A DNA stretch of 64,000 nucleotides. Origin: Pomacea canaliculata (taxonomy: Eukaryota; Mollusca; Gastropoda; Architaenioglossa; Ampullariidae). The notes under the pieces are model-generated. The model saw only the letters and a program-made list of their open reading frames with translations. It had not been told where the DNA came from and searched no databases. The position numbers and the translations under genes were made by a program. Shown piece after piece: positions 15,789-64,000 of this stretch. Positions within the stretch are counted from its first letter, which is position 1; the number at the start of each line of letters is the position of its first letter. The stretch is from the NCBI RefSeq assembly GCF_003073045.1, contig NC_037593.1:12036735-12100734 (forward strand), in the 5' to 3' direction.

Positions 15789-18700
15789 ATGGCGGCCTTG
15801 ATGTCAGTTGCAGCTGTGGTGCTGGTAGCGGTGACAGCTTTGGTGGTCGTCATACTGCTTCCCGAGTCTCCAACTCCACTCACAACCTCCATTGATGCAG
15901 AATACGATTATATTATAGGTGAGGAACTAATGAATCAATCATAGGAACTAATGAATAGGTCATTATGTTGTATATGTCCACCCAAGTGATAAACTAATGA
16001 ACAGATGAAACTTATAATAACTGTTATGTTGCCCACCCAAGTACGTTAAGGTGTGAGACACCAACATCATCTTCACGTTGTCCGTCATTAATCTCAGATT
16101 CATCGTTGACCCTTGATAGACAAGTTACACCTGTCTGTCTGTCTGCATGAGTTCTGTAAGATCTGTAAGATCGTGGACACCAGCAACCCCTTTCTCACAA
16201 CAGTCAAGTGGCGTTTGCTGGTCTGTTTTGGCCACGTGATCTGGCACTCTATCCTAAGACCTTATTTACCTTGGATGAGGTCGACGCTGACAGGAATTGC
16301 TGACTTCCGCTCGACAGTCTTAAGTTTTGTTCAGCCACTATGTGTCTATCCAATTGCTCCCTCCGACAACCAGTACCAGCATAACCATTCCTCAACTGCT
16401 ACCAGACAAGAGATAAATGAATGAAAAGCAAGTCTAGCACGAGAGTTGCCAGAGCTGTGTAATAACCTTACTGTCGCGTATACTATAATAGATGTATATT
16501 GTCACAGTGATGCACTCAAACCGGAGCAAGAGAATTAAGGGAGAAAATTCAGGTGGAATACCAACCGTGCCAAACAAGATTTTGTCTGCGTTGCAATGTA
16601 CATTGTCATGCTTTACGATTACATTATTTATTTGTATAATTGCACACTAAATGAATACCACGTCTGAGATGCCGTTTGTTTTTCATGTGCTTTAGTGGGG
16701 GCGGGGTCAGCGGGCTGCGTGCTGGCCAGTCGGCTGTCCGAAGATGATGACGTGCGTGTCTTGCTGCTGGAGGCGGGGCCAGACGACCAGGGCGTGACAG
16801 ATTTTTCTGTTCCTCTTTATGGCGCGCAGCATATGTGGACCAAAGACTTCAGCTGGGACTTTTACATTGAATCGCAGAACCACAGCCTAGAAGGCTATAA
16901 ACAAAAGGTGACAGATGGATTAGAGAACACACACACAGTGTTGATATTCATGTACCCTTGTATTAGAGTACAGACTTATATAGTATTTATGATCTGATTT
17001 ATTTAATTACAGATGAGTGATCTATAAATCTCATAAGTGATGTGACGGAGAAAAGGATAAAGAGAGAGAATTAGGTGTGAATGTATTAGCCTATGCAAAG
17101 TACGAAGTGGATAACTGTGTGCGCGCGCGTGCGTGTGTACATGCATGCGTATTCAATATTATATAGCATTTTGGATGTGTATGTTTTACATAAATATAAT
17201 AACGTGTACGTATTCGATATTGTATGAGACTTACATTGTATATTACATGCATAATTGACAGAAAATCTCTGATAAGGTGAAAGAAACAATTATCTTGCAT
17301 CTCTCATCCTTTTTCAACTCGAGCACATATAGAAAAATGCAGGCACACACATTGACGTTCACACGCGCGCACACACACACACACAAATCAAATATTTGTT
17401 TTCAGTATTGAGAAGAAATGTTTGTCATGTGCAAAACCAAACATTTGTCTACTTTCTTTTTCCACAAAGAAAATGGTATGGCCACGAGGAAAGGTTCTGG
17501 GGGGAAGTTCCAACCTCAATGGCATGATCTACATCCGGGGCAGTCGCCATGATTATGATAATGGGCCAAAGCCGGTGCGGAAGGCTGGAGTTACCAGGAT
17601 GTATTGCCTTATTTCTTGAAGTCGGAAGACATACTCAGTCCTGATTTGTTGGATTCCAGTACGAGCTGAGCGTAACAGATTTATTTTCTCAAAAAGATAA
17701 TGCTTGCAAGATTCTAAAAAAAGTGTGAGAGAGATAGAGGTAAATAAACGAGAGAAAAGTTAAGCAAATATATGTATCGGGATTTCTAAGATACATTCGT
17801 TAACAAATGCTTTCCATCTGGACTCAGCACTTTTTGAAATTTTTTTTCTCATCTCCTTCCAGTAAAGCGATGTTACTATAATAAATCATGATATAGATTG
17901 CGCTGTCTTCGCAGAGTACCATGGGAAAGGAGGCCCTCTAAAGGTGGATATTCCGGACACCACACAACTTGCACAAGAGGTCTTACTTGCTGGAAAGGAG
18001 CTGGGCTACCCCGAGGTGGATCCCAACGGCGAGACTATGCTAGGTGAGACGGTGTTCATTTAATATCGAGTCGGTTAAAAAATATTTTTTGGTCTCTATA
18101 TTAGAAGGTCAGAAGGATGAGCAGACGGGGGGTGAGGAAGAGAAAAGCAATGCTTGTAGGACCGGAAGTTTATGCATTTAAATGGGCAACATATTTAAAT
18201 ATTTTTTCGTTTAGGATAAGATGTTTAGCTTATTTCCCAACCTCATTCTCTGATTGTCGTAATTTTTTGTTCAGATTTAACCTGTTTCTTTCAGGTTTCA
18301 GCAAGGTTTCACTGAGGTTTTCTTGGTGATTAGAGAAAAAAGCTAGCACCCGTTAGTTTACAGCGAAAGCAACATAGTTCGCAACCCTCTCATCACCCCG
18401 AAATCGTCTCTCTTTATTTTCACGTTGCTGTCTTCAGATCAAAGTTCACGCTGACCTACCCGTGGGTGATAACCTGCAGGATCACCTCTTTATGGACATC
18501 GGTATTAGCATCAACGAGTCCATCGGTGCGACCGAGGAGAAGGCAAGCAGTTTGTGGGAGCGTGCCAAGTACTGGCTCTTTGGGAAAGGTAACTTACTTT
18601 TTTTCCAAAAGAATCTACGGTAACTGTTAAGTTCTCAGCTTTATTTGTGTCAGGAGACCTTTCCCATCAAATTTCAAACTGATAGTTTTACTACATGGAA

Positions 18701-21003
18701 TGCACTTCTGACTAAAGCAATTTGTTCTCTAGAAATACTGACCTCTTTCACCTTCCCCCAAAGAAACTATTGATTTTTTTTAGACATATTCTTTTTTTCT
18801 GTCCTTAGGAATCCTCAGCTCCACGTACACCATAGAGACCCTTGCTTTCTTTGCCACCAATGAAGAAAAAAGACAGCTGGGATGGCCAGATGTTCAGCTT
18901 CATGTGTTTACTTCCCTTTCCATTATTGCTCCCCACATTCTAACTGAGGAGGTGAGAAAAAGACATCCATCCAATCAATCAAGGCAGCTAGAGAAACAAA
19001 CTTTGTTTTTTTTCTGGTAATTTCTGAATGATAATTTGTATGAGTGCCTGAAGAGTGAAAATGTGACAAACGCAATAAAGATCACGAAAGTGTGAACGAG
19101 AACAGCCTTCGACTGAATCTCCGTTAGGATTTAGCCACGCCTTACTCGACACCTTTGCTGTTGTTCGTAGAACCTACAACGACAGTCTGGAAGAAAAAAT
19201 AAAGTCGGACTGTCATGCTTATCCACGCTGCTGAACTCTCTCAGCGTGGGGTCACTGCGCCTGCGCAGTGGGAATCCTCTGGATGACCCCGTCATTGACC
19301 CGCACTATTTAGAGAGGTCAGAGGACGTGGAGGTCATTCTGTACGGTAAGTGAGGCACTGACCACTCGTCCTTCCGTTCTTCCTTTATAGCTTCCTCCTC
19401 TCCAAGCTATTTAAAGACTACTTACTAAAGCTGTAGAAAGAGGAAATTGTAAGACCTCTAACATATTTTACCATGTGTTCAGTTTAACAATAAAAAATAT
19501 TTTTTGACATCATTTTTATGCTTTAAAGGTCAAGTAAAACATTTTATCAGAATTGAAGGAGCTATTATGTGTGTGTGTGTGTTTATATATAAATAATACG
19601 TTTAAAATTATTTCAACGTCAGGTATAAAAGTCTGTAAGGAGCTGATGAACACTTCTGCTTTACGGAAATTTGGAGCGGAACTGGCAGACAAACCAGTGA
19701 GCGCATGCGCGAAGACGTACGAGCTGGACTCTGACGATTACTGGCGCTGCGCCATTCGCTACTCCGTGCACACGTGCTACCACCCTACTGGCACGTGCAA
19801 AATGGGTGACGTCACTGACAACACCACGGTGGTCGACAGTCAGCTGAGGTAAAGGTTTGAGCTTCATTAGGTCCCAGCTCGCAAGACACTAGATTCTCCG
19901 GTTAGTCTGTGAAAAAAATTCTCTAACGCAAAGCTAATTAATTGCAGGACGCACTTTAATAAATCATGGCTCCTTTGCACAACCATAACCTTTTCCATCC
20001 TGGATACGACCTGTATGGTGTCGGAATGCTGCTGTGTTTATAATTATAAGCTTATCAATTGTGTACTAATTCCACTATTTTTATTTCGTCTTGAAACTCA
20101 GATAGATATTAAGTAATGTAGTGTTTTACCTAGACAAGTTAGTCTCAGAGACCTTGATCCACTACACTGCACTCATTTATGTCATGTGAGCGGTGCCACA
20201 GAAAACAATGTTTTATATAGTTTCTTACAGTGCAGTAGCAACTCTTATCAGATGTTTTTTTTTATCTGTATATGATAGATATTCCGCATATTATTCACAA
20301 TGCAAAATTGAACGCGGCAACTATCAGGTATACCTCTAAGGTATTCACATTTTTCGGGATTTATCGCATGCTTCATGTACTCACTGTGCAGACAAAGTAT
20401 TAACCGACATATTAAATAAAAGACACTCCTCCTGTAGTGACGTCATTACCAATCACATCGCGACTTTAAGTAGAAACGAAAAGAGAAAACGAAGAGTTAG
20501 TTCGTCTGACTTTGGACTATCTAGCAGCCACACGTTGGTTGACTATTATTAGAAAGTCATACCAAAAAAAAAAAAAAAATTAAAATAAAAAAAGATGAAC
20601 TTGGAGTTTGTGTAACTCCGATTATGCAGTTCCGCGAAAGACTTGAGAATGGACGAGTAACAACTTGAGGGGACTGCTCTTTATCTTTTTTTTGTCTCGA
20701 CTTGCTCGACAAAAACCTATAAAGACTTGTTCAAGCTCGACTCTCGTGGTACGTAATGACTGTATCTTAGGCATCATAAAGACATTGTCTAATCACGAAA
20801 TCCAACAGTTATTTGCTACAGTTATCTTCTCGCAGTATGACACCTTGACCTGTCCTGTTGTGTTTAGGGTCAAAGGCATCCGCGGCCTGCGTGTGGCGGA
20901 CGCCTCCATCATGCCCACCATAGTCTCCGGCAACACCAACGCCCCCGTCATCATGATCGCGGAAAAAGCCGCCGACCTCATCCGAGGCCGCTCCGCCGTG
21001 TGA
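15789..21003 (+). pseudogene. GMC oxidoreductase copy 1 (broken: frameshift plus exon 5 deletion)
   Basis: It has the family's 10-exon layout with one exon missing. Recognisable exons: 15789-15918, 16696-16907, 17470-17658, 17915-18043, (exon 5 absent), 18438-18588, 18809-18951, 19171-19345, 19623-19848 and 20868-21003. Splice sites are kept and codons line up with copy 2. Two lesions are visible. In exon 3, one base of the conserved Trp codon is missing near 17,562 (DYDN then out of frame), so exon 3 is 189 nt against 190 in the other copies, and a stop follows. Exon 5 is deleted: after its acceptor and first 12 nt (18295-18306) the sequence jumps to DNA that lies downstream of exon 5 in copies 3 and 4, so GMC signature 2 is gone. 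The active-site motif YHPTGTCKMG and the C-terminal SGNTNA remain. It is the most diverged copy and lacks the long shared upstream unit. A processed origin is ruled out by the introns. Confidence 0.85.
16200..16410 (+). repeat. LINE 3'-end fossil in intron 1 of copy 1
   Basis: It is homologous to 28,330-28,545 in copy 2. In one frame it reads LVCFGHVIWHSIL, similar to the [11 protein letters not shown] segment near the C-terminus of some non-LTR retrotransposon ORFs. Being shared by all four genes, it predates their duplication. Confidence 0.5.
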
Positions 21004-22073
21004 CGCCAGCAGCAGATCACGTGATGAATAATGTCTGGAAGAGGTGTTGAATACTTATATCGACATGACCTTGAACTGCTTGAAGCTTTTTCGTTGACTG
21101 ATCCTTCCTTTCCTTCATATTCCTCTTACTAACATTAAATTCATTCATTTGTGATCGATTGCATTCACCTACCACCAACCAATCCTCCGTTATCCAAGAA
21201 GCCTCCTCCTATTTATCATCCGTCATCCATGACCCACCCTTACACCACATCCATTATCACACATCTATTTTTCATTCTTCCTTCAGCTGTCATCTATTTG
21301 TTCATCATCCATCATCCACCCATCCAAAAAATCGTCCACCTATCCGTCATTTATCCAGAAAACTTTCCTCGACAGAAAGCTGATGTTTAAAAATTGTAAC
21401 GGCACATTTTACTGACTTTTAAACGACAGCCGTCTTGATTTTTACACCATTAGGTATTGTACAGCATGGTTAAATGCATGCAGGTTAAAATTATTAGTAA
21501 ATTTGTTGTTTGTATTTCGTCTTCCGTAAGTATTTAATCCCGGTGGCGAGGATGTGGCTAAGGGTGTGGAGAGAGAGAGGGAGAGAGTTGTGTGTACATG
21601 TGTGTGTGTGCTTGCATATTTGACTGTAAAGTGGATGGAGTTGTTCTACAGTTGCTATTAACCATCCACAGCGAGCTGCTCGTTTTTAAAGCATTTTTAC
21701 ATATTGCTTGAAGCAGATAAACAGTGTTTTAATATTGTCTCTTATCGCATATGAAGCGCTTGAGTCACATCAGACACTGACACGTGATGATGTTCGTTTT
21801 TGCGAGTCTTTTCAGAGCTTAGTATACTTCGGAAGCATCATCTTTTGAACCAGCAGACGCTAGTCCGCACAGAGATTTTGTAGTTTGTTCCTAACCTGTT
21901 GTCTGGAAATCTAGAAAAAGAAAAATGCATGATTTTCTGAAAGAAATGAAAAAGAAATTGTTCATTCTGTCTACCAGGTTGAGACAAATGTGACATGATA
22001 AACCGTGTGATGCTTATTGCTTACAAGGTTAAACAATTTAATGCTTACATTGATTACAATGTTAATTTACTAT
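21004..22073. other. Spacer downstream of copy 1
   Basis: No gene. It contains a CATC/CACC-rich degenerate simple repeat at about 21,170-21,350 and GA/GT runs near 21,570-21,610. At about 22,037-22,073 it begins a sequence (TTAATGCTTACATTGATTAC...) that recurs at about 40,145 and 55,990. Confidence 0.5.
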
Positions 22074-25000
22074 TTTCTCCCAAAACCTCTGGCATGAAAA
22101 TAAAAAAATCCAAAATACAGGAAAGCGATTGCTGGAATGAACAGTGGATACTATGAACAGTCACTAAATGTGTGGGCAAACGAAAAATATAAATAATCAC
22201 TGTTTAATTAAATAAAAAATGTTTATGTGTGAAAGTTGCCGAAGTATTTTGTTTTTGCCTCGTATCTAAGTCTAACGAGGCAGTGACAACTTCTTGTCCT
22301 TCTGTAACTCGGAGATGGCGGAAACAAAGAAATAAACCGATGACAGTCGCTGAAAGAACATCCACTGACTGGAATGGAACCAGCCGCTATGGTAGCCAGA
22401 CGGCGACGGCGCCACGTAGCTAGTGTAACACGTGATTGCCAACGACGGATTGAGTAACGAGAGGATTACATGTTGGTATCTGGGTCTAGACCAGTAACAA
22501 CCAGTATTGTGAGAATGTGCAAAACGGTATATATGAGCGAGAAACAGTGCGCGTGTGGGATAGAAATTTGCAGGTTCCTTCCTCACGCGAGGCTGCTGAC
22601 ATTTGTTTACAGAAACGTTCCGAAAAAAACAACAACCTGGTTTTAAAAAAGACTATGTCACGAAAACGTGTAAAATAATTTTTAGATAGTTAACCGTTTG
22701 AAGCAGAACAACATGTAACAACGTTTCTTAAAAGATAAGTTGACAAGTTACTGTTCAGATTAACACGGACAGTAAAAGTACAGTAAGTAGGACTGTAACG
22801 ATGACATGCTGCTACATGTGACACGGGCAAAGTGAGTGAGGCGGAACAATTGTGACAGTTGTAAGAACAGCCCAGACGTGAGTATCTAGTGAGAGATATC
22901 AAACACCACTTGCGTGGATCTGCAGACCCTTCCCTCCCCCCCCCCCAAAACACACTCTTTGTTCACACCCAACGCATGCGCAGTCTGCACCCAAACATTC
23001 ACCCTCTGACCTTGCTGACCTAGCGTCGTCAGTGCAGGTGCTTATACCTGGGAGAGCGAAATAAAAGAATTGGTTAATGTCAGTGTGAGAGGGATAAATA
23101 ATCGTGAGACTCCTGTCACAAGAAGGGAGGGAGCGGGTACCCAGTCTTACAAGCTGCTAGTGCAGAAGCGGTGCAGGGTGCATTGTGGCAGGGTGCATCG
23201 TAGGGACGGAATTTATTTTGCACGGGCCATCAAGGAGAGCCCCCAGTGAGAAACTGGTAAGATTTTTCTTTAACTGTCGCAGAATGTTACTGATGTCTGC
23301 ATGGTGCTGGTTAGAATCATGGTAACGGTGGTAGGTGAGAGGGCAAGATAATAGTCTTTGTAAGTATAAGGGATAAATCAGTGATAAGAATGTAATGCAT
23401 ACATCAAAGAAGGGTTAGATATTCCCAGGAAACGAGAGCGAACACAAAAAAGCCGAACATGTGTAGGAGACGATGTGTTAATGTTAAATGTCAAGATGGT
23501 CGACTCGGTGACAAGCCAGCGACAACATTAGTAATTGAAGGAGGGTTGTGTACCGACTTTTAGAAAAGTATTGTTTAGATAACGGATTGAGGTGCCCAGA
23601 GCGAACCAAGCGTGACTGTGGTCTTCCTGTTATAAGCGATGGATTGTTGTGGCTTCAGGGAGAAGCGTCTTGTTTCTGGTTATAAGGTCTATGGACAAAG
23701 CTTTACAACTTTAGAAACAAGACCCTCTTCCTTGAGCTCTCCATATTCCCCAATGCAACTACTTACCCTCGCTTCATAAGTAACAAAAAGTTTATGAAAT
23801 GCTAGAATCCTGGCTATAAACGGTATGTCACGGAATGTAATATACTTAATACTGTCTGAATGGAATGTCCATAAAACATGGCGACTGAGGTTTATTTTAG
23901 CGGGAAGTTTACTTTTGTTGATGTTATCTCATGAACCTGATCACGTATCTACAAAATTTACCTATATCCCCTCGCATGAAAACCTCGACAAAGGCAACAT
24001 ATTGCAACACATAATAATAAATATCTTTGAAGTATTAACACTTTTTTAAATGGATAGGAATATTCTTCAGGCATTTCAGGCTGAGTTGAGGTTCCTGGTT
24101 CGACACCACATGTGCAAACGTGTTTTCGTTAGAAATGATGTCTGTCGTCGGAATATGGCGACGAAGGCAACAGAATAAGTGTTAAGCTGCTATTGTTCTT
24201 TTTTGTTTGTTTGTTTGATTGTTTATTTACTCCGTGCACGAGTGATGGTCGGGTGAGGAAAACTAGCAACGACCTTCTGACACCGAGTCGCAACTTGAGA
24301 CTATAGGTGGCTGAAATATGAGGACATCTCGGCCTTGAACTGCAAGTGAACTGCAGGTTAACTGCAGGTTAACTACCACCAGTCCTATGATAATGGCTTC
24401 TGTGGAAAACAGTAAGACTGGGGAAACTTATGCAACGAAACGTTTGAGGCCAACATCTGTACGCCACTATTTAGGAGAGGTCGTATTGACAATCAAAACA
24501 GACAATTCATTAGTGTAACCAGTCTCACCTGCCCTTTAAGTGGTTACCCATGGATAGGCCAATAGTGCAAGAAACACAGAGCCAAAGAGATAGATCGGCT
24601 TTATTTTACCTCCATAAAGTAAATGGTATGATGGTGCCACATTTCTTGGTCAGTCAAAAGCCTTATTCCTCTTCGTAAGACCACAAGTGAATCGTAAAAT
24701 AAAATTATGAAAGAAAGACTGAATTACAGGAAAAGCTCACTGACTCCTCTCTGTCTCTCATTGAAGGAAAATCCCAATGCATCCGAAATTGTCAACTCCG
24801 ACTATTCATTATCTTAATCATCAAACTCTTTAGAAAACTGCCAACCCCTTCCCCTATCCTATATTTTTGCTTGAGAATGTTGACTAAAGTCTAATTTATT
24901 TACTATTTACTGGGAAATTTATTGAAAGTCTGTACGGAGTAATTAAATTATTTAAAATTGAATCATCTCAGATAAATTATTTCATTCTTAGACTGTTTCA

Positions 25001-25339
25001 CATAAGCTTTGGACTGTAATAGTAGTTGTATGCTAATAGTCTGTAAACAAGAAAAAATGAAATCAGAACCAAGTCCCCTGAAATAGAATAAAATTTATGT
25101 ATTCTTCTGCCGATGTCAGTAAAATTATTTTGTCCTCAAATATTGATTTGAATAGAAATAATGAAAGGTGTTTTTAAGCATCATGATGGTAACCTTCGAG
25201 TGGGCTTTGGTTTCTGTGCACAAGTACAGTTTAAGGTAGTATCACCTTCGTGTCCAAGAATGAAAACAGAAGAAAAGTTATCACGATTGTAGCGGTTTCA
25301 CCGAAGTGTTTCAGTAACAGCGACTAGGTGTACTTTTAC

Positions 25340-25353
25340 GTGTCACGTGACAC
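25340..25353. promoter_or_regulatory. 14-bp palindrome centred on an E-box (CACGTG)
   Basis: GTGTCACGTGACAC is a perfect palindrome. The same 14 bp occurs in unit 3 (41482-41495), and unit 4 (about 57,314-57,327) has one change (TTGTCACGTGACAC). It lies about 1.7 kb before the GMC start codon. A bHLH or bHLH-Zip binding site is possible; that is inference. Confidence 0.35.
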
Positions 25354-25685
25354 TCCGTTGGGTGGGCGTTGTGCCTGAGTAACAAGAGGTCATAGCGCAG
25401 GACAGGTTACTTGACGGTATCTCGAACAGTGTCAACAAGTTGTGAGAATGTTTGTGTGCAAAATGATAGGCCCCAGAATTAGTGAGCGTGTGTGCGCATG
25501 TCACTAAGCGTTCGAGAGCAGAATGTGCATGTCACGTGAAGTTGCTGACATCTGTTTACAGCAACGTTGCGAAAAATAAAGCTGCATACAAGTTTTAAAA
25601 CTAAGGTAAACATATTACTAAAATGAGTAAACCAAGAAAACAAACTACCGTATCTCCAATGCAGAAAAAAGCAATAATTTATCCT

Positions 25686-25913
25686 AAAGGATAAGAAGAC
25701 ATAGGTGAGGTTAAAGACAGTAAAAGTACAGTAAGAAGGACGAAGGATAGGAAGACATAGGTGAGGGTTAAGGACAGTAAAAGTACAGTAAGAAGGACGA
25801 AGGATAGGAAGACATAGGTGAGGGTTAAGGACAGTAAAAGTACAGTAAGAAGGACGAAGGATAGGAAGACATAGGTGAGGGTTAAGGACAGTAAAAGTAC
25901 AGTAAGAAGGACG
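25686..25913 (+). repeat. 57-bp minisatellite, four copies (unit 2)
   Basis: The unit is GGATAGGAAGACATAGGTGA followed by a GGTTAAGGACAG..AGTACAGTAAGAAGGACGAA block, about 57 bp, repeated four times nearly perfectly. Unit 3 has one copy (41822-41880) and unit 4 four (57658-57884). Confidence 0.95.
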
Positions 25914-26634
25914 ACCGCTGTAATAGTGAGATGTTGCCTTATGTGACACTCACACAAAAGTGAGGCGAAACAATTTTAGCTTTGTTCATGTTCTACAGAC
26001 CTGGGAGAGGAAAATGAAAGACTTTTTAAAAACCATTGTGAGGAATATACACACAGCAAATATAAAAATAAGGAATTGATAATCTTTCAAATGTTGTGCA
26101 TATATCATTGTGACAGTCTTGCTGGAAATAAATCTATAAATCAAAAATATTTTATAACTACCGGCACCCTGCTGGAGCCACACATATTCAAAGCCACTAA
26201 CACAAGGAAGTTTTTTTTTTATTTTTTATTTTTTTACAAATAAATCCGAAATACTCTTACCATTTTCTTGTAGATGTAACATGTTTACATGTAAATTTTT
26301 CTGGGAAGTTTTCTTTGTACAGGAGGCAGCCAGTGTTCTGCCAATATGTAATGACAACTACGTGAATGACTGGCTGTACAAAAGGGGAATCTTTTTTTCT
26401 CCAATGGCTCGTTTGCTATTTGTAACAACATTCGCGGAACATACAAAATAATCTACTTGAAAATTAGCTTATTTTATTCGGTCAAACTGTAATTTCGCCG
26501 AACTTTTGAAACTTGTACAATAGCAGCCTGCCTTCCTGAGTCACCCAAATCCGCCTTTTGTCATAAGATGAGAGAGAAATATGCTCATTGCCTTTTCCAA
26601 GTTTATCCAAAACAGTCTGGTTAGTTCATTGCGC

Positions 26635-26642
26635 TATAAAAG
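26635..26642 (+). promoter_or_regulatory. TATA-like box upstream of GMC gene 2
   Basis: TATAAAAG sits in a block conserved in all three units (CAAGTTTATCC...GGTTAGTTCATTGCGC then the box, then TGTTCAATTGTC). Units 3 and 4 have TACAAAAG at the same place. A start site about 30 bp downstream would give a leader of some 430 nt before the ATG, possibly shortened by a leader intron ending at the TTTCAG just before the ATG. Confidence 0.45.
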
Positions 26643-27091
26643 TGTTCAATTGTCTTCCTTTATCTGCTGTCATGACCTGCCGCGTCCTGCAGTTCATCTC
26701 ACAGGTGTTTCATGCACTTTGATTCTTAGTGCTTTTGCTTTTTTAAAATTAATCTTTTTATCTTCTTATGATTATTCTGGGCTACAGCTGATGAAGAAGT
26801 CATGTGCATATGCGTATGTCTTGTCATATACTCGTTTGCATACTATCTTGTAATGGGTCTTCCCTTGTCCATCAAAACTTATGTTGTTACTGTTGTTATT
26901 TTTATTAGTATTTATTAATTATAATTACTTGTTACTGAATATGCCGTTTTCTCGGCGACCTGGACGTTCCAAACCCTGACTTATAACATATAGGAATCTA
27001 CAATTAAAAATCCCTCCTTCTCTCTCTCACACACACGAGCTCGCAACAGCGATCAAACCTTACAGACTAATCCACCTGTTTCAGACGAGAG

Positions 27092-34676: not shown

Positions 34677-34701
34677 ATGCATCTTATCTTAAAAGATGCA
34701 T
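34677..34701. repeat. short hairpin with 9-bp stem
   Basis: ATGCATCTT (34677-34685) pairs with AAGATGCAT (34693-34701) around a 7-nt loop. TAAATATTATGAT occurs on both sides, suggesting a tiny palindromic insertion. Confidence 0.5.
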
Positions 34702-43128: not shown

Positions 43129-43136
43129 TACAAAAG
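43129..43136 (+). promoter_or_regulatory. Altered TATA-like box of copy 3 (TACAAAAG)
   Basis: It lies at the same position and context as TATAAAAG before copy 2, with T to C at the third base. Copy 4 has the same change (58982-58989). The weaker match may lower promoter strength; that is inference. Confidence 0.35.
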
Positions 43137-47600: not shown

Positions 47601-47879
47601 TGAGCATCGGTATTAGCATCAACGACTCCATCGGTATTACCTTGGAGAAGGCAGGCAGTTTGTGGGAGCATGCCAGGTATTGGCTCTTTGGGAAAGGTAA
47701 CTCTCTATTTTCCAAAAGAGTCTGTGGTAACTCTTCAGTTCTCAGCCATAATTTAGCTTACTGGAAAGAGCATGTGTGTGTGTGTGCGAGTGTTCTAGTC
47801 AGGAGTCTTTTCCCATCAAGTTTCAAATTGATAGCTTTCTTACATGAAATGTACTTCTGACTCTTCCCCACTCACCTCA

Positions 47880-47960
47880 AAACAAACAAACAAACAAACA
47901 AACAAAGAAACAAACAAACAAACAAACAAACAAACAAACAAACAAACAAACAAACAAACA
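47880..47960 (+). repeat. (CAAA)n microsatellite, intron 6 of copy 3
   Basis: About 20 tandem CAAA units with one GAAA interruption. Copy 4 has a shorter version (63,775-63,825), and copy 2 only a few units near 31,315-31,340. Confidence 0.95.
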
Positions 47961-48988: not shown

Positions 48989-48989
48989 C

Positions 48990-49041
<52 letters not shown>

Positions 49042-49043
49042 CC
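48989..49043 (+). repeat. (CAA)n microsatellite at the exon 9 deletion point of copy 3
   Basis: About 17-18 perfect CAA units sit exactly where copy 2 carries about 600 bp with exon 9. Left flank TTTATTGTTC and right flank ACCGTTTTCAGTTAACCG both match copy 2. Confidence 0.95.
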
Positions 49044-51386: not shown

Positions 51387-51713
51387 GACTCTGGCACTGT
51401 CTTGTTTACACAGACTCTGAGACTGTCTTGTTTACCACAGACTCTGGCACTGTCTTGTTTACCACAGACTCTGGCACTGTCTTGTTTACACAGACTCTGA
51501 GACTGTCTTGTTTACACAGACTCTGGCACTGTCTTGTTTACCACAGACTCTGGCACTGTCTTGTTTACTCAGACTCTTGTACTGTCTTGTTTACACAGAC
51601 TCTGGCACTGTCTTGTTTACCACAGACTCTGGCACTGTCTTGTTTACCACAGACTCTGGCACTGTCTTGTTTACCACAGACTCTGGCACTGTCTTGTTTA
51701 CCACAGACTCACT
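51387..51713 (+). repeat. 12-copy minisatellite, 25/27-bp units
   Basis: The unit is CTCTGGCACTGTCTTGTTTA followed by CCACAGA (27 bp) or CACAGA-type shorter forms (25 bp), repeated 12 times. Variants GAGACTG and TTGTACTG occur. Because 27 is a multiple of 3, long open frames run through it, but these are a by-product of the repeat. Confidence 0.95.
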
Positions 51714-52562: not shown

Positions 52563-55500
52563 CCTCAGAAAATGTGCATGTATTGTTTTCTTCCATCCCC
52601 GTATAGTCTGTCAAAACATTTGCACCTCGAATTCTATCGGTAATTATGTACTGAAACCATTTTAGTCTGATGTATTGTATTTTTTTTCACCAAGGTAATC
52701 ATATATTTAATTTGTTTTCCCTTTTGAAGAAACATTAGAATATACTTGTTCTTTCTGTTAATATTTCATAAAAATTTTTGAAAGATTTCGTAATAGAATT
52801 AATTAGTTTTGCAGATTTTGATGTCTCTATATTGTTCTTAATTGTAATGCCCGCTGAATGAATACATTGGTTAATTACCCTACCACATCCCATGTATGTA
52901 ACTATATTGTAACTCCGTACTTTCCATTAATCTCACCAGCTAAGAGTAGAGTGCCAGATTCATTATTTTGTTTATTGCTCTGTAACCTGTTTTGAATGCA
53001 GAATATATCCTTGTTGCTCAGCTGAAATATAGTATTTAAATTTATTGGTTGTGCCATCACTTCCTTTGATGTTTCCAGCTTAATGCAATAATAAAATTCT
53101 TTACATACATTTAATACATATTTCCAAAGTTATTTATGTGATGGGTGTAATTGTACCTATTTGATCTATATTTATTTACATCTACAAGCTTAGGGTATAT
53201 CTTTAACACGATATCTTTTCATTGGTACTTAGTAGTCAGCTTCTTAATCCAAGATAACTTAAGTGCTTTTATATAGGTAAATATGAGATATCCTAAACTT
53301 CCATTGTTTTCACTGATTTTCGTATTTATCTTCTCAGGGTTCAAATTCCAAATGAACTTAAAGCATAGTCTTTGAAGATCCCGTATATCTGTAATTGTGA
53401 GGTTGTCAATAAATGAGTTATGTTAAAATTAATAACTTTAGCTTTTCTACCAACTGGTGGGATAACTCTTTAGAGCCAAGACTAAAGCTCATTCGCCACG
53501 CGTAGTAAGCGGTTGCGCGACAGCGCTACTTGTCCCAGCCCACGCGTCGCCTGTATCTGTACGACGCACTGTTGTACCACAGTAGAGTCTGTCGAGTGTT
53601 TAGTTCTGTGCGTAAATGAACGAATACATAAGGGGAGAAATACGGGAACCGTAAGGAATTGTTCCTCTTTCAATTACTTCTCTTTAAATCTGAAAAAATC
53701 AACCAATCAGGTATTTTCTCCATGTTAAAACCACGCGAAGGTTTTTACTTCAGCGCCATTATGACATTCGTAGCAGGTTACTCAATTCGACGTGGATTTG
53801 TACTCAAACAACCGAAAATGAGAAGAAAACAGTAAGTAATATTAAAATTCAAAGGTATATTCTCATTAAATATATGCCTGTTTGTGCTTTTGTGTGTGTA
53901 TATATTTAAAAATTTTTTTCTGATTGTCGAACTTTTGACCTACAGCCCCATTTTGTGAGTTCTCGGTCCGATACAGTTAAAGTCTTTCAGTTGATTTTAC
54001 TACAAGACAACAAAACGTATATTTCTTAAAATGTAAACCAGGTAAATCTATTTTAAATGATCTTTAAAACGGAGTATCACACATAGTTGTTGTTAATGAA
54101 GGATATTAAATATAATTTTTTTAAAAATACCAGTCGAGATTTCATTCGCGGTCATTCTCTGCTGCGTACACCGGGGTCGAACGGGCTACCGCAGCAGCTG
54201 CGTATTGAAATGTTTATGTGTGAAAGTTGCCGAAGTATTTCGTTTTTGCATCGCATCTAAGTCTAACGAGGCAGTGACAGCTTCTTCTCCATTTGTAACT
54301 CGGACATGGCGGAAACAAAGAAATAAACCGGTGACAGTCGCTGAAAGAACATCCCCTGACTGGAATGGAACCAGCCGCTTTGGTAGCCAGACGGCGACGG
54401 CGCCACGTAGTTAGTGTAACGACGGATTGAGTAACGAGAGGATTACATGTTGGTATCTGGGTCTAGACCAGTAACAACCAGTATTGTGAGAATGTGCAAA
54501 ACGGTATACATGCTCGAGAAACAGTGCGCGTGTGAGATAGAAATTTGCAGGTTCCTTCTTCACGCGAGGCTGCTGACATTTGTTTACAGAAACGTTCCCA
54601 AAACGAGTTTTAAAAAAGACTATGTCACGAAAACGAGTAAAATTTTTTTTAGATAATTAACCGTTCGAAGCAGAAAAACATGTAACAACGTTTCTTAAAA
54701 GATAAGTCGACAAGTTACTGTTCAGATTAACACGACAGTAAAAGTACAGTAAGTAGGACTGTAACAATGAGATTCGATTCGGGCCGGGAGTGTAACTTCC
54801 CTTAACGGTCCCATTTCTCAGCCCCAAAGGTTCCCTTTCGGGGCCGATGTACTCTTGCAGGCTGGGTCTGCTCTGACACGGGCAAAAGTGAGTGAGGCGA
54901 AATAAAAGAATTGGTAAATGTCAGTGTGAGAGGGATAAATAATCGTGAGACTCCTGTCACAAGAAGGGAGGGAGCGGGTACCCAGTCTTACAAGCTGCTA
55001 GTGCAGAAGCGGTGCAGGGTGCATCGTGGCAGGGTGCATCGTAGGGACGGAATTTATTTTGCACGGGCCATCAAGGAGAGCCCCCAGTGAGAAACTGGTA
55101 AGATTTTTCTTTAACTGTCGCAGAATGTTACTGATGTCTTCTTGGTGCTGGTTAGAATCATGGTAACGGTGGTAGGTGAGAGGGCAAGATAATAGTCTTT
55201 GTAAGTATAAGGGATAAATCAGTGATAAGAATGTAATGCATACATCAAAGCAGGGTTAGATGATCCCAGGAAACGAGAGTTGACACAAAAAAGCCTAACA
55301 TGTGTAGGAGACGATGTGTTAATGTTAAACGTCAAGATGGTCGACTCGGTGACAAGCCAGCGACAACATTAATAATTGAAGGAAGGTTGTGTACCGGCTT
55401 TCAGAAAAGTATTATTTGAGTGAACGACGAAGAAGAAGAAGAAGAAGAAAAGTATTGTTTAGATAACGGATTGAGGTGGCTAGAGCGAACCAAGCGTGAC

Positions 55501-57657
55501 TGTGGTCTTCCTGTTATCAACGATGGATTGTTGTGGCTTCAAGGAGAAGCGTATTGTTTCTGGTTATAAGGTCTATGGACAAAGCTTTTCAACTTTAGAA
55601 ACAAGACCCTCTTCTTTGAGTTCTCCATATTCCCCAGTGCAACTACTTACCTTCGCTTCATAAGTAACAAAAAGTTTATGAAATGCTAGAATCCTGGCTA
55701 TAAACGGTATGTCACGGAATGTAATATACTTAATACTGTCTGAATGGAATGTCCATAAAACATGGCGACTGAGGTTTATTTTGGCGGTGCGTTTACTTTT
55801 GTTGATGTTATCTCATGAACCTGATCACGTGTCTACAAAATTTACCTTTATCACCTAGTATGAAAACCTCGACAGAGGCAACATATTGCAACACACAATT
55901 ATAAATATCTTTGCGTTGAAGTATTAACTTTTTTTTTTAATGGATAGGAATATTCTTCAGGTATTTCAGGCTGAGTTGAGGTTCCTGGTTTAATGCTTAC
56001 ATTGATTACAATGTTAATTTACTTTTTTCTCCCAAAGACTCTGGCATGAAAATAATAAAAAAAAAAAATTAAAAATGCAGGAATAAAATATACCACATGC
56101 GCAAACGTGTTTTCGTTAGAACTGATGTCTGTCGTCAGAATATGGCGACGAAGGCAACAAAATAAGTGTTAAGCTGCTATTGTTCTTTTTTGTTTGTTTG
56201 TTTGATTGTTTATTTACTCTGTGCGCGAGTGATGGTAGGGTGAGGAAAACTAGCAACGACCTTCTGACACTGAGTCGCAACTTGAGACTATAGGTGGCTG
56301 AAATAAGAGGACATCTCGGCCTTGAACTGCAAGTGAACTGCAGGTTAACTACCACCAGTCCTATGATAATGGCTTCTGTGGAAAACAGTAAGACTGGGGA
56401 AATTTATGCAACGAAACGTTTGAGGCCAACATCTGTACGCCACTATTTAGGAGAGGTCGTATTGACAATCAAAACAGACAATTCATTAGTGTAACCAGTC
56501 TCACCTGCCCTTTAAGTGGTGACCCATGGATAGGCCAATAGTGCAAGAAATACAGAGCCAAAGAGAGATCGGCTTTATTTTACCTCCATAAAGTAAATGG
56601 TATGATGGTGCCACATTTCTTGGTCAGTCAAAAGCCTTATTCCTCTTCGTAAGACCACAAGTGAATCGTAAAATAAAATTATGAAAGAAAGTCTGAATTA
56701 CATGAAAAGCTCACTGACTCCTCTCTGTCTCTCATTGAAGGAAAATCCCAATGCATCCGAAATTGCCAACTCCGACTATTCATTATCTTAATCATCAAAC
56801 TCTTTAGAAAACTGCCAACACCTTCCCCTCTCCTATATTTTTGCTTGAGAATGTTGACTAAAGTCTAATTTATTTACTATTTACTGGGAAATTTATTGAA
56901 ACTCTGTGCGGAGTAATTAAATTATTTAAAATTGAATCATCTCAGATAAATTATTTCATTCTTGCACTGTTTCACATAAGCTTTGGACTGTAATAGTAGT
57001 TGTATGCTAACAGTCTGTAAACAAGAAAAAATGAAATCAGAACCAAGTCCCCTGAAATAGAATAAAATTCATGTATTCTTCTGCCGATGTCAGTAAAATT
57101 ATTTTCTCCTCAAATATTGATTTGAATAGAAATAATGAAAGGTGTTTTTAAGCATCATGATGGTAACCTTCGAGTGACCTTTGGTTTCTGTGCACAAGTA
57201 CAGTTTAAGGTAGTATCACCTTCGTGTCCAAGAATGAAAACAGAAGAAAAGTTATCGCGATTGTAGCGGTAACACCGAAGTGTTTCAGTAACAGCGACTA
57301 GGTGTACTTTTACTTGTCACGTGACACTCCGTTGGGTGGGCGTTGTGCCTGAGTAACAAGAGGTCATAGCGAAGGACAGGTTACTTGGCGGTATCTCGAA
57401 CAGTGTCAACAAGTTGTGAGAATGTTTGTGTGCAAAATGATAGGCCCCAGAATTAGTGTGCGTGTGTGCGCATGTCACTAAGCGTTCGAGAGTAGAATGT
57501 GCATGTCACGTGAAGTTGCTGACATCTGTTTACAGCAACGTTGCGAAAAATAAAGCTGCATACAAGTTTTAAAACTAAGGTAGTACATATTACTAAAATG
57601 AGTACACCAAGAAAACAAACTACCGTATCGCGATAATGTAAAAGCAATAATGTATCC

Positions 57658-57884
57658 TAAAGGATAAGAAGACATAGGTGAGGTTAAGGACAGTAAAAGT
57701 ACAGTAAGAATGACGAAGGATAGGAAGACATAGGTGAGGTTAAAGACAGTAAAAGTACAGTAAGAAGGACGAAGGATAGGAAGACATAGGTGAGGTTAAG
57801 GACAGTAAAAGTACAGTAAGAAGGACGAAGGATAGGAAGACATAGGTGAGGGTTAAGGACAGTAAAAGTACAGTAAGAAGGACG
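57658..57884 (+). repeat. 57-bp minisatellite, four copies (unit 4)
   Basis: Same unit as 25,686-25,913. The units differ at a few bases in a pattern unlike unit 2, so the array has turned over since the duplication. Confidence 0.95.
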
Positions 57885-58359
57885 ACCGCTGTAATAGTGA
57901 GATGTTGCCTTATGTGACACTCACACAAAAGTGAGACGAAACAATTTTAGCTTTGTTCATGTTCTACAGACCTGGGAGAGGAAAATGAAAGAGTTTTTAA
58001 AAACCATTGTGAGGAATATACACACAGCAAATATAAAAATAAGGAATTGATAATATTTCAAATCTTGTTTATATATCATTGTGACAGTCTTGCTGGAAAT
58101 AAATCTATAAATCAAAAATATTTTCTTACTACCGACAGCCTGCTGGAGCCACACATATTCAAAGCCACTAACACAAGGAAGTTTTATTTTTAAGAAATAA
58201 ATCCGAAATGCGCTTAAAATTTTCTTGTAGATGTAACATGTTTACATGTAAATTGTTTCTGGGAAGTTTTCTCATCAATATAACTATGACAAAGTTAGTA
58301 TTTAATACACCTAACTTATGTTGTCCCCAAAAGTCGATAACATCCCAGATCGCCATAGA

Positions 58360-58710
58360 TTATTTTATTTAGTGTTTAGAGATGAGCATGTACACCTTTT
58401 CAACAGTCTCAAACTTATGGAAACTCCAGATTTCCGAGATGTAAGAAAGTTTTGGTACAACCTGAGAATCGAATATCTTGAAAAATACGTTCCTTGGTAA
58501 ATTTTCGATTTAACCTTGGCATTTTATAAGCTTGGCACCGATTTTTACCTTTTTGCCAAATCCTCGACAGCCTGGGAGAGGGAGAGTTTGTAAAACAAAG
58601 ACCAAGACACAACACCTTGAGTTTTTTTTTAAACCGCAGGTGAGATCTCTGATGTTTAAAGGTGTGTGTCTCGTGAAGAGAACTAAACTGAAGAGGTAGT
58701 ATCTTGTCAT
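58360..58710 (-). mobile_element. LINE reverse transcriptase fossil, unit 4
   Basis: Counterpart of 42,365-42,705 with more indels. The YLGL/LSY-type blocks are split between frames. Confidence 0.5.
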
Positions 58711-59435
58711 GAGCTAGACTTAGTAATTTGACAATTATTTTGCTACCGACATAGCTCGTTTGCTATTTGTAACATTATTCGCGGAGCATACAAAATAATC
58801 TACTTGAAAATTAGCTTATTTTATTCGGTCAAACTGTAATTTCGCCGAACTTTTGAAACTTGTACAATAGCAGCCTGCCTTCCTGAATCCCCCAAATCCG
58901 CCTTTTGTCATAAGATGAGAGAGAAATATGCTCATTGCCTTTTCCAAGTTTATCCAAAACAGTCTGGTTAGTTCATTGCGCTACAAAAGTGTTCAATTGT
59001 CTTCCTTTATCTGCTGTCATGACCTGCCGCGTCCTGCAGTTCATCTCACAGGTGTTTCATGCACTTTGATTCTTAGTGCTTTTGCTTTTTTTAAAATTAA
59101 TCTCTTTATTTTCTTATGATTATTCTGGGCTACAGCTGATGCAGAAGTCATGTGCATACGCGTATGTCTTGTCATATACTCGTTTGCATACTATCTTGTA
59201 ATGGGTCTCCCTTGTCCACCAAAACTTATGTTGTTGTTATTATTTTTATTAGTATTTATTAATTATAATTACTTGTTACTGAATATGCCGTTTTCTCGGC
59301 GACCTGGACGTTCCAAACCCTGACTTATAACATATAGGAATCTACAATTAAAAATACCTCCTTCTCTCTCTCACACACACGAGCTCGCAACAGCGATCAA
59401 ACCTTACAGACTAACCCACCTGTTTCAGACGAGAG

Positions 59436-62400
59436 ATGGCGGCCTTGATGTCAGTTGCTGCTGTGGTGCTGGTAGCTGTGATAGCTTTGGTGGTCGTCAT
59501 ACTGCTTCCCGAGTCTCCAACTCCACTCACAACCTCCATTGATGCAGAATACGACTATATTATAGGTGAGGAACTAATGAATAGATCATAGTAATTAATG
59601 AATAGGTCATTATGTTGTATATCAGTCCGCCCAGGTGATAAACTAATGAACAGATGAAACTTATAATAATTGTTATGTTGTCCACACAAGTACGTTAGGG
59701 TGTGAGACACCAACATCATCTTCACGTTGTCAATCATTAGTCTCAGATTCATCGTTGACCCTTGATAGACAAGTTACACCTGTCTGTCAGACTGCCTATT
59801 GTGATAGAAAAGTTACAGCTGTTTGTCAGTCTGCCTATTGTGATAGAAAAGTTACAGCTGTCTGTCAGTCTGACTGTTGTGATAGATAAGTTATAGTCGT
59901 CTGTAAGTCTACTTATTGTTATAGGTTACAGCTGTCTGTCAAGCCGCCTATGAGTTCCGCCACATTCTCTCTACACACGCTGTCGCCACTCTTGTCTGTG
60001 AGTTTGTTCTATCTCGGCTTGATGGTTGCTAGCTGCCCCTCAAACCTTCTTCATTCACTCCACAAAGTACAAAACTCCTTTGCACTTCTATCGTTTAGAG
60101 CTAGGACATGAGACCATGTCAGTCATCTCTTTCGTTTTCTACACTGGCTCCTGCCCTGACTATTTCCGTTAACTTCTTTCTCTACATTCCTGCCAGTATA
60201 TTTCATCTGATGACGCCCCGTCACCAAAACAACAGGTGGTCACCGGATTGTATAGGTACTGCGCAGCAAAAAAGTGGAATTCTCCTCCATTCCATTTCCT
60301 TCAACCTATCATAGAATCCTTTAAATCGGCACTTTAAAACATTTGTTCCACGAGCGTTACTCCTAACCCCAGTCACCATATTAGTCTTCCTGCTCGTCTT
60401 CCTCTGCAGATTTATAACACTCTCCATCCTTATTGTTTGTTCCCTGATTGTCCGTTTGTCTCACTTGTCAGCATAGCTGTCCTTCCATCCTTCCTATTCT
60501 ATCCATTACTTCTACTTGTCGCAAGCCTAGTACAGACTTTTCTTAAAGTTCGCATCTTGCTGATGTGGAATGTGGACTCTGTCGAGAATACAGACATTTG
60601 ACAACAACTGTATGAGCAGGTCGCTCTGAACATTTGATGTGAGACACAAAGCAATGAGTTTGTCGTAGGCACGGTCACAACCCTTTAGGCCGTCTAGGGA
60701 CACCAGCAACTCCCTTTCAGGTGCAGGTTGGTCTGGTTTGGCCACGTGACCCGGCAGGACACTCTAAGACCGTCTTTCAATGTACATTGGATGGGGTAGA
60801 CGCTAAGATGAAGGAAGATGTGGACTGCAAAGATACAGAAGTGGACTGGTCGTTCCAAGCAGGAATTGTCGACCGCTGCTCGACTTGTCAGCCCCAGTGT
60901 GTAACAACTTGCTCCCTCCGACAACAAATATAACTATTCATCAACTACTACCAGACAATAGACGAATGAATGAATTAAAGCAAATCACGAGTACTGTCTT
61001 TCAATGATAGCCTTGTTATAACCGAGTATGCTATAATAGATGTATATTGTCACAGGGATACACTCAAACAGGAGCAAGAGAATGACGGGAGAAAAATCAG
61101 CTGGAAAACCAACCGTGCCAAACAAGATTTTGTCTGCGTTGCAATGTACCTTGCTGTGTTTTATACTTACATTATTTATTTCTACAATTGCCAATGAATG
61201 AATACAAGGTCTGAGATGCCGTTTGTTTATCATGTGCTTTAGTGGGGGCGGGGTCAGCGGGCTGCGTGCTGGCCAGTCGGCTGTCCGAAGATGATGACGT
61301 GCGTGTCTTGCTGCTGGAGGCGGGGCCAGACGACCAGGGCGTGACAGCTTTTTCTGTTCCTCTTTATGGCGCGTGGAATGTGCGGAGGAAAGACTTCAGC
61401 TGGAACAGTTTCACTGAATCTCAGAGCCACAGCCTAGAAGGCTATAAACAAAAGGTGACAGTGGAAAGCTAACACTGACACATAGATTGGAGGACACACA
61501 CACACAGAGTGGTGGTGTACATGTATCCCTGTGTTAGAACTCATACTCATGTAGTATTTATGATTTGGTTTATTTGATTACATAACAAGTAACCTATAAA
61601 TCTTTAAATAATCAGTAAATATCCTATAAAAAAGAGTAAAGAAAAAGATAAAGTGAGAGAGAATAAAGTATGAATGTATTAGCTGATACAAACTACTGAG
61701 CGGACAGGTCTATGTGTGTGTACGCGCGTGCACGCATGTGTGCGTACATGTTTGATATTATAAAGAATTTTGCGTGTGTGTACAGATACCTATGTATGTG
61801 GAGGTATTCGATTTTGTATGAGGTTTACATTGTATACTATATGCACAACTTACTTGCGAATATGTCAGTGTCCCTGAAAGAATGAAAGAATAAAATATTT
61901 TGCATGTTGTATCTTTGTCTCACAGGCATTGACGTTTATACGCACACAAAATAAAATCAAATATTTGTTTTCAGTATTTAAAAGAACAGTTTATCGTGTA
62001 CAGAATAAACACTGTTTTTTTTTTCTCGAAAGAAAACGATGTTTACAAGAGGGAAGGTTCTGGGCGGAAGTTCCAACCTTAATGCGATGATCTACATCCG
62101 GGGCAGTCGACATGATTATGATAATTGGGCCAAGTCCGGCACAGAAGGCTGGAGCTACCAGGATGTATTGCCCTACTTCTTGAAGTCGGAAGACATACTC
62201 AGTCCTGATTTGTTGGATTCCAGTACGTGCTGAACATAACAGATTTATGTTCGCAAAGCTTACAAAAAAAAAAAAAAGAAAAAAAAGAGGGAAAGCAATA
62301 GAATCGAATAAATGATAGAGCAGTTTGACAAAATCGTGAAACTGGATTTCTGAATAATCAATGTCTTCCATTTCATTCTCAGCACTTCCACATCTTGAAA

Positions 62401-64000
62401 CTTTATTCTTATCTACCACACGTTCAGTATTCTTTCTCTCCCCATTACAGTTTAGCCACAGAAGATAACTGTTTCTGTAATAAATCATAATATAGATTGC
62501 GCTGTCTTCGCAGAGTACCATGGGAAAGGAGGCCCTCTAAAGGTAGAGATTCCGGACACCACACAACTGGCACAAGAGATCTTACGTGCTGGAAAGGAGC
62601 TGGGCTACCCCGAGGTGGATCCCAACGGCGAGACTATGCTAGGTGAGACGGTGTTTAATATCGAGTCGGTTAAGAAATATTTTTTTAGTCTCTATTTTAG
62701 AAGGTCAGAAGGATGAGCAGACGGGAGGTGAGGAAGAAAGAAACAATGCTTGTTAGACCCGAAATTTATTCATTTAAATGAGCAACATATTTAAATATTT
62801 GTTTGTTCAGGATAAGATGCTTACCTCATTTCCCAACCCCATTGTCTGATTGTCGTATTTTTTTTGTTCAGATATAACCTGTTTCTTTCAGGTTTCAGCA
62901 AGGTGCAGGCGACCCAGAAGAACGGAGTCCGCTACAGCACGTCACGCGCCTTTTTACACCCTGTGCTTGACCGCTCTAATCTGCATGTTGGGGTCAATGC
63001 TCACGTCACTCGAGTGTTGATCGAAGACAGAGTGGCGAGAGGAGTGGAGTTTTATAAGGATAGGATCGTGCGTACAGTTCGTGCCAAGAAGGAAGTGATT
63101 GTGTCTGCTGGTGCCATCGGGTCTCCACAGATCCTCATGTTGTCCGGAGTTGGTCCCAGAGACCATCTAGAGTCTCATGGAGTAGGTGCTTCTACCGTCT
63201 TTTTTCAATTTTAATAAGTTCTGTTTGTAGCCATATATGTCAAAAACGGAGGAGGCTATTCATTAAGATTTGGATAAAAGAATATCTTTCACTGAGGTTT
63301 TCTTGGTGATTAGAGAAAAAAGCTAACACCTGCTGGTTCTTTTTCATAACTGCTTTTGTTCACCGCAAAAGCAACATAGTTCGCAACCCTCTCATCACCC
63401 CGAACTCGTCTCTCTTTATTTTCACGTCGCTGTCTTCAGATCAAAGTTCACGCTGACCTACCCGTGGGTGATAACCTTCAGGATCACCCCTTTATGAGCA
63501 TCGGTATTAGCATCAACGACTCCATCGGTATTACCTTGGAGAAGGCAAGCAGTTTGTGGGAGCATGCCAGGTATTGGCTCTTTGGGAAAGGTAACTCTCT
63601 ATTTTCCAAAAGAGTCTGTGGTAACTCTTCAGTTCTCAGCCATAATTTAGCTTACTGGAAAGAGCATGTGTGTGTGTGTGCGAGTGTTCTAGTCAGGAGT
63701 CTTTTCCCATCAAGTTTCAAATTGATAGCTTTCTTACATGAAATGTACTTCTGACTCTTCCCCACTCACCTCAAAACAAACAAACAAACAAACAAACAAA
63801 CCAACAAACAAACAAACAAACAAACAGAAAAACTAGTAATTTTTTCTAAGACCTTTACCTGTTTTGTATCTTCAGGAATCCTCAGCTCCACGTATGGTAC
63901 AGAGATCCTTGCTTTCATGGCCAGTAATGAAGAAAAACGAAAACTAAGATGGCCAGATGTTGAGCTTCTTCTGCATTCTTCCCTTTTATTTAGAGATTCC
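59436..64000 (+). CDS. GMC oxidoreductase copy 4 (intact as far as seen, 3' end outside window)
   Basis: Exons seen: 59436-59565, 61243-61454, 62033-62222, 62514-62642, 62892-63181, 63440-63590 and exon 7 from 63876 to beyond 64000. All have GT-AG borders and open frames in the same phases as copy 2. The N-terminal hydrophobic segment, FAD motif GAGSAG, signature 1 ([19 protein letters not shown]) and signature 2 ([15 protein letters not shown]) are all intact. The sequence is nearly identical to copy 3, except around exon 4 where it matches copy 2. The catalytic His/Asn exons (9 and 10) lie outside the window, so whether it shares copy 3's exon 9 loss cannot be seen. Intron 1 carries the same two LINE fossils and five 39-bp repeat units. 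Confidence 0.88.
59941..60560 (+). mobile_element. LINE reverse transcriptase C-terminal fossil, intron 1 of copy 4
   Basis: Nearly identical to the copy at 44,041-44,660, including the same decayed stretch, so it was copied with the gene. The second LINE tail follows at about 60,715-60,945. Confidence 0.65.
63775..63825 (+). repeat. (CAAA)n microsatellite, intron 6 of copy 4
   Basis: About 12 CAAA units with one interruption (CCAA). It sits in the same place as the longer tract in copy 3. Confidence 0.9.

Follow-up and report, generated by a model that had tools for sequence, protein, structure and literature searches.

Mosaic divergence along a tandem array of GMC oxidoreductase genes and pseudogenes in Pomacea canaliculata

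RESULTS

Uneven Divergence along the Copy Pairs

The 64,000-base stretch of Pomacea canaliculata DNA analyzed here (the window) carries a tandem array of four GMC oxidoreductase gene copies in which divergence jumps along one and the same copy pair, so that the array is probably a tandem GMC family, partly pseudogenized, whose older paralogs were overwritten in part by gene conversion or unequal exchange. The source of the DNA is given by the spliced protein of copy 2, which is 100% identical to the annotated P. canaliculata protein P0001, the representative of a 90% cluster of five sequences. Self-comparison of the window places the copies head-to-tail on the + strand, and one 10-exon plan is common to all of them, as had been described in an earlier reading of the letters alone (the sequence-only reading); seven exons of copy 4 are inside the window. 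The likeness of the copies is far beyond chance (BLAST E-values down to 0.0), and when the paralog P0002 was compared with the window by tblastn, its matches were confined to copies 1–4. The window contains no N (0 of 64,000 bases). By overall identity the copy pairs rank in the order 3-4 > 2-3 > 1-2.

Copies 3 and 4 were scanned with exclusion of the columns to the left of copy-2 coordinate 23052 and of 60 of the 8123 remaining columns, which appeared to be misaligned. The two copies differ at 93 of 3077 columns upstream (3.0%) versus 51 of 4986 (1.0%) in the part that begins at copy-2 coordinate 26490 (Fisher p 1e-10 for the contrast at this scanned point); the change-point statistic is 41.8, and the maximum in 500 shuffles, scanned at every third column, was 17.4. 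The right end of the more similar tract falls beyond the window. The same two parts differ by 3.8% (upstream) and 4.9% (gene) in copies 2 and 3, and the contrast between copies 3 and 4 is therefore not due to slow gene sequence. In copies 2 and 3, the best-fitting change point is located inside exon 10, 21 bases short of where the stop codon ends, with 12 differences in 311 positions up to 33835 versus 165 in 493 beyond it (likelihood statistic 117, obtained without a shuffle control). Relatedness is still evident in the 3′ flanks of these copies (519 columns, 65% alike, E 4e-48), and their low likeness, about 65–67%, indicates that at least those ends are old.

In copies 1 and 2, introns 4 and 5 and the starts of introns 1 and 8 are 91–93% identical, whereas introns 2, 3, and 6 are 72–76% identical. 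The intron mismatches of this pair are clustered (variance 38.3 versus a maximum of 17.6 in 5000 shuffles), and these two intron groups, picked after the data had been seen, contain 56 mismatches in 717 positions and 236 in 918, respectively (p 4e-22); the corresponding groups in copies 2 and 3 diverge by 4.5 and 6.0% (p 0.17). Synonymous divergence per exon, counted with omission of codons split by introns, extends from 0.04 (exon 8) to 0.49 (exon 10) in copies 1 and 2 and from 0 to 0.23 in copies 2 and 3, and for neither pair was any of 20,000 random draws as uneven. The outside paralog P0002 is at least as near to copy 1 as copy 2 is in exons 7 and 10, whereas in the other seven exons of copy 1, copies 1 and 2 are closest to each other; copy 1 gives almost one profile whether it is compared with copy 2, copy 3, or, within the window, copy 4.

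A single pair with a single duplication date should not jump in divergence, and the jumps therefore point to tract exchange in an older tandem family. Tracts of unequal age with sharp borders are present in introns as well as exons, with some room left for a regional rate effect.

State of the Individual Copies

The sequence-only reading described a doubly broken copy 1, an intact copy 2, a copy 3 without its active-site exon, and a copy 4 intact as far as visible, with about 5 kb of upstream DNA common to copies 2–4 and absent from copy 1, and all of this was borne out. The coordinates are collected in Table 1.

The 593 codons of copy 2 are open to a TGA stop, and all nine introns have GT/AG borders. 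Both domains of the family are recognized by Pfam, GMC_oxred_N (PF00732) with 183.8 bits (cut-off 23, 5e-54) and GMC_oxred_C (PF05199) with 132.3 bits (cut-off 24.6, 2e-38). The glycines of the GxGxxG motif that binds flavin adenine dinucleotide (FAD), Gly45, Gly47, and Gly50, as well as H527 and N571, show no variation across 36 sequences. Residue conservation was assessed in 113 of the 119 homologs P0002–P0120 (length 560–640 amino acids), among which the column of H527 contains His in 111 and that of N571 Asn in 109; we take these two residues to be the catalytic His of the GMC family and its partner. The AlphaFold model of copy 2 has a mean predicted local distance difference test (pLDDT) score of 94 and a confident GMC fold, with a hydrophobic N-terminal helix formed by residues 2–24. 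In a Foldseek search, the model matched 8rpg with an E-value of 4e-63 and template modeling (TM) scores of 0.81/0.93, and its nearest PDB matches are alcohol oxidase, choline oxidase, and fatty acid photodecarboxylase (TM 0.8–0.9). P0001 is named glucose dehydrogenase [FAD, quinone]-like isoform X1 in the database, but a glucose dehydrogenase first appears at rank 38 of the Foldseek list, behind these three enzymes, and the name is a database label. The product of copy 2 is a predicted 593-residue GMC enzyme that should oxidize an alcohol or sugar with bound FAD by means of H527 and N571.

Copies 2–4 have Phe118-Thr119 at a site where Trp is present in 109 and Pro in 102 of the 113 homologs; a Phe in place of Trp118 is found in none of them, and the Trp-Pro pair is retained in copy 1 and P0002. 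Ile528 and Ala575 are also unusual, Pro being present at these positions in 99 and 104 of the 113 homologs, respectively. However, in the alignment a solved choline dehydrogenase likewise lacks Trp-Pro at the 118–119 site, so that the change to Phe-Thr need not kill the enzyme. The idea that copies 2–4 are plainly decaying, which these odd residues raise, was rejected; among columns that are at least 98% conserved, changes were found in 0 of 63, 0 of 76, 0 of 67, and 0 of 53 for copies 1–4, respectively, and 23 of the 113 homologs depart at at least as many 90%-conserved columns as copy 2. The ratio of nonsynonymous to synonymous divergence (dN/dS), calculated after gapped codons had been dropped, is 0.39 for copies 2-3 (95% interval 0.23–0.67), 2-4 (95% interval 0.22–0.75), and 1-2 (0.28–0.55), 0.48 for copies 1-3, and 0.57 for copies 1-4; copies 3 and 4 have 8 differences, too few for this ratio. 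These values indicate that constraint acted on the lineages during much of their history.

Copy 1 is broken by a 1-base deletion in exon 3 and by the near-total loss of exon 5. Read straight, it comes to a stop after 163 codons, and the second deletion (copy-2 coordinates about 30455–30835) spares about 13 of the 290 nucleotides of exon 5 and removes its donor site. The 1-base deletion could in principle be an assembly error; the loss of exon 5 seems too large for one. A search of a phage collection with a piece of exon 5 gave nothing useful. The likeness of copy 1 to the other copies begins at 15695, 94 bp before its ATG, and its intron 9 (19849–20867) does not resemble that of copies 2 and 3 (46% in alignment, the comparison level from an unrelated 5′ flank being 47%). 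An imperfect inverted repeat (67%) is located at 15113–15396, about 390 bp before the ATG.

All nine exons that are present in copy 3 are open, but exon 9 has been replaced, together with parts of both neighboring introns (copy-2 coordinates about 32347–32943), by a CAA repeat. If exon 8 is joined to exon 10, the reading frame shifts, and the resulting 502 codons no longer include H527 and N571; the GMC_oxred_C match of this product covers only 38 residues and is below the family cut-off. The CAA repeat could in principle be an assembly error.

In copy 4, exons 1–6 and 125 of the 143 nucleotides of exon 7 are open, the remainder lying beyond the window, and the comparison with copy 2, which covers 409 codons, finds all of them open. 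Copy 4 may thus be a second working gene, as judged from its sequence, and the claim of one clear survivor is not supported, given these open codons, the dN/dS of 0.39 for copies 2-4, and the fact that the copy runs off the window. In exon 4 (30061–30189, 46620–46748, and 62514–62642), copy 4 is identical to copy 2, and two sites are common to copies 3 and 1, contrary to the trend elsewhere; this pattern is perhaps a small exchange tract.

Upstream Blocks, Spacers, and Other Features

The upstream block common to copies 2–4 is 5.0, 6.7, and 5.2 kb long, respectively. At its left edge, the copy 4 block falls about 145 bp short of those of copies 2 and 3, and near the left end there is a stretch common to copies 3 and 4 that is different in copy 2. 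Copy 3 has a 566-bp segment that is absent from copy 2 and of which copy 4 has about 480 bp. The 48 bp at 22037–22084, on the left edge of the copy 2 block, recur at 40144–40191 (100%) and 55989–56036 (98%), in the interior of the copy 3 and copy 4 blocks, respectively, and within a segment that copy 2 does not have at that place; the 48-bp stretch is a possible exchange or insertion site. A tandem repeat with four units of 56–57 bp is present in the blocks of copies 2 (25687–25914) and 4 (57660–57885), and copy 3 is about 170 bp shorter at this repeat. Open stretches on the - strand at 42365–42757 and 58415–58762, in the segment of copies 3 and 4 that copy 2 lacks, may represent the tail of a retrotransposon reverse transcriptase, but Pfam gave no match to them.

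At an E-value threshold of 1e-4, likeness between the spacers that precede copies 3 and 4 is limited to a diverged 3′ flank. Past the first 39 bases compared, which begin 14 bases before the gene end, the spacer that follows copy 1 (21004–22073) does not clearly match those that follow copies 2 and 3. A minisatellite with about 12 copies of a 27-bp unit occupies 51386–51710, between copies 3 and 4. Outside the array, a 326-codon open frame at 7515–8495 (- strand) is rich in Ser and Thr, has a hydrophobic end, and has no Pfam match. In all, the eight open reading frames of the window that were compared with Pfam apart from the GMC genes gave no match, and a search of the whole window against Rfam at gathering thresholds gave none either.

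Table 1. Coordinates of the array and associated features in the window
Feature	Position	Strand	Remark
Copy 1, GMC oxidoreductase pseudogene (exons 1-4, 6-10, and exon 5 remnant)	15789-21003	+	
Copy 1 exons 1-4	15789-15918, 16696-16907, 17470-17658, 17915-18043	+	
Copy 1 exon 3 frameshift, 1-base deletion	17470-17658	+	189 nt vs 190
Copy 1 exon 5 remnant (~13 nt) and deletion junction	18295-18308	+	
Copy 1 exons 6-10	18438-18588, 18809-18951, 19171-19345, 19623-19848, 20868-21003	+	
Upstream block of copy 2	22074-27091	.	
Copy 2, intact 10-exon gene, 593 aa	27092-33856	+	100% to P0001
Copy 2 exons 1-5	27092-27221, 28813-29024, 29582-29771, 30061-30189, 30442-30731	+	
Copy 2 exons 6-10	30978-31128, 31394-31536, 31991-32165, 32578-32803, 33721-33856	+	
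Best-fitting change point of copy 2/3 divergence, inside exon 10	33835-33836	.	3.9% left, 33.5% right
3′ flank of copy 2	33857-34340	.	about 65-67% like copy 3 flank
Upstream block of copy 3, with 821- and 507-bp insertions not in copies 2 and 4	36847-43586	.	
Copy 3, pseudogene without exon 9	43587-49951	+	
Copy 3 exons 1-5	43587-43716, 45346-45557, 46135-46324, 46620-46748, 46998-47287	+	
Copy 3 exons 6-8, 10	47546-47696, 48010-48152, 48639-48813, 49816-49951	+	
Perfect (CAA)n, 53 bp, in place of copy 3 exon 9 and intron flanks	48989-49041	+	
3′ flank of copy 3	49952-50434	.	
Upstream block of copy 4	54208-59435	.	
Copy 4, open into exon 7, reaches window end	59436->64000	+	
Copy 4 exons 1-4	59436-59565, 61243-61454, 62033-62222, 62514-62642	+	
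Copy 4 exons 5-7	62892-63181, 63440-63590, 63876->64000	+	

DISCUSSION

The array has the composition of a birth-and-death family, tandem duplicates of which some are intact and some are pseudogenes, and in this respect the description given by the sequence-only reading stands; the independent evolution of the copies that the term also implies does not, in view of the discordant divergence. The same reading saw a readable order of events and a recent expansion by simple block duplication. Because divergence differs along the same copy pair, overall identity gives no order of events, and the low likeness of the 3′ flanks of copies 2 and 3 does not support simple block duplication.

If parts of older paralogs were overwritten by exchange, an older set of tandem paralogs would have existed first, and a block comprising upstream DNA and gene would have spread to the positions of copies 2–4. 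Recombination inside exon 10 would have set the right edge of the block and left older, diverged 3′ ends behind. Copy 1 would have swapped tracts with the ancestor of copies 2–4, and in copies 3 and 4 the promoter and gene body would have been re-homogenized after the upstream blocks had diverged. It should be recognized, however, that a number of observations weigh against this account. No donor or direction of exchange was identified in the array, the shared upstream indels group copies 3 and 4, and the contrast along this pair could reflect a more recent duplication whose left border was close to the promoter; the two parts that define the contrast differ only slightly in copies 2 and 3 (p 0.02). 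In the comparison of copies 1 and 2, both the start and the end of intron 7, as well as the ends of introns 1 and 8, are intermediate (80–87%), and these four segments are in neither of the intron groups, which, as noted, were chosen with the data in view. Synonymous divergence is greatest in exons 3, 6, 7, and 10 for both the 1-2 and 2-3 pairs, and intron divergence in the two pairs is correlated to some extent over ten segments (Spearman 0.55, p 0.10), so that regional mutation rate may explain part of the unevenness.

Three other explanations were considered. Under plain birth and death, copy 1 would have branched off before the others, and two duplications of a unit made up of the gene and 5 kb of upstream DNA would have given copies 2, 3, and 4, with breakage afterward and without exchange between copies. 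The restriction of the upstream block to copies 2–4, the segment (566 and about 480 bp) and other indels common to copies 3 and 4, and the order of overall identity (3-4 > 2-3 > 1-2) are all consistent with this scheme, but it predicts a single age along each pair, from which 3-4, 2-3, and 1-2 all depart; barring assembly errors or strong regional rate differences, the discordant divergences contradict it, and we regard it as unlikely. Unequal crossing over alone, in which misaligned copies exchange within exon 10 and close to the promoter and yield units with parts of different ages, fares somewhat better, although it is still rather doubtful. An exchange inside exon 10 gives like bodies and unlike 3′ flanks, as in copies 2 and 3, and a newer duplication beginning near the promoter would account for copies 3 and 4; however, the duplicated spacers that are predicted are not found, the spacers in the window not being duplicates, and the alternating tracts of copies 1 and 2 require several events. 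The third possibility is that a single locus was assembled twice as copies 3 and 4, two haplotypes having been strung together; such a double assembly had been put forward as the case that would overturn the sequence-only reading. Their gene parts are indeed 99% alike, but their upstream blocks are 3.0% apart, the 821- and 507-bp insertions are in copy 3 alone, and the copies also differ by 170 bp in the upstream repeat, in their left edges, and in their spacers, with no N anywhere in the window. On the basis of this upstream divergence and the indels, edges, and spacers, the double assembly was rejected as highly improbable.

Overwriting by gene conversion or unequal exchange in an older family is consequently the preferred explanation. 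A stronger version, which we offer only tentatively and consider improbable as it stands, is that new copies arise by overwriting instead of by addition: a block of about 12 kb, the upstream region together with the gene up to a point in exon 10, would have taken the place of the bodies in old paralogs that had diverged, and the 3′ ends of those paralogs would have survived. If this were true, copy number would be old and sequence identity young, and broken copies would serve as exchange partners for working ones. The array warns against dating tandem duplicates by overall identity, since the value is 1% or 3% for copies 3 and 4 and 4% or 33% for copies 2 and 3, depending on the stretch, and, read together with its genomic surroundings, it could show where exchange starts and stops (the promoter edge and exon 10) in a snail enzyme family. 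Apart from its mosaic divergence, it is an ordinary small gene array.

Among known relatives, P0002, a P. canaliculata protein also named glucose dehydrogenase [FAD, quinone]-like, is an 82% paralog that is not encoded in the window; its contig is recorded with the length of that of P0001 (34,737,321 bases). It has Trp-Pro-Arg-Gly where copies 2–4 have Phe-Thr-Arg-Gly, and His-Pro and Asn-Ala-Pro where copy 2 has His-Ile and Asn-Ala-Ala. GMC genes of Batillaria attramentaria and Nucella lapillus, about 50–63% identical when compared as proteins, are among the closest named relatives outside Pomacea, and their locus numbers (BaRGS_00012067 and _00012072; ACOMHN_022010 and _022011) belong to GMC genes that, within each species, are recorded on equally long contigs and so are probably clustered. 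A literature search for the GMC family in Pomacea or molluscs, judged by titles and the beginnings of abstracts, found no paper on such an array among those listed, and GMC or glucose dehydrogenase terms are absent from the main text of the Pomacea papers checked for them. In insects, PMC1891103 describes a GMC gene cluster in an intron of flotillin-2, a tandem array grown by duplication, with gene order kept in four distant insect species and 27–69% protein identity within the fly cluster. As in the snail array, the GMC genes are in tandem, but the insect cluster is far older; the terms “gene conversion” and “pseudogene” do not occur in the main text of that paper. The mosquito vitellogenin genes, for which PMC2875236 by its title reports duplication, concerted evolution, and purifying selection, belong to another protein family and phylum, and in the snail array two of the four copies are dead. 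Tandem GMC arrays, and exchange between tandem copies in other families, are thus already known, and the present array is a further case.

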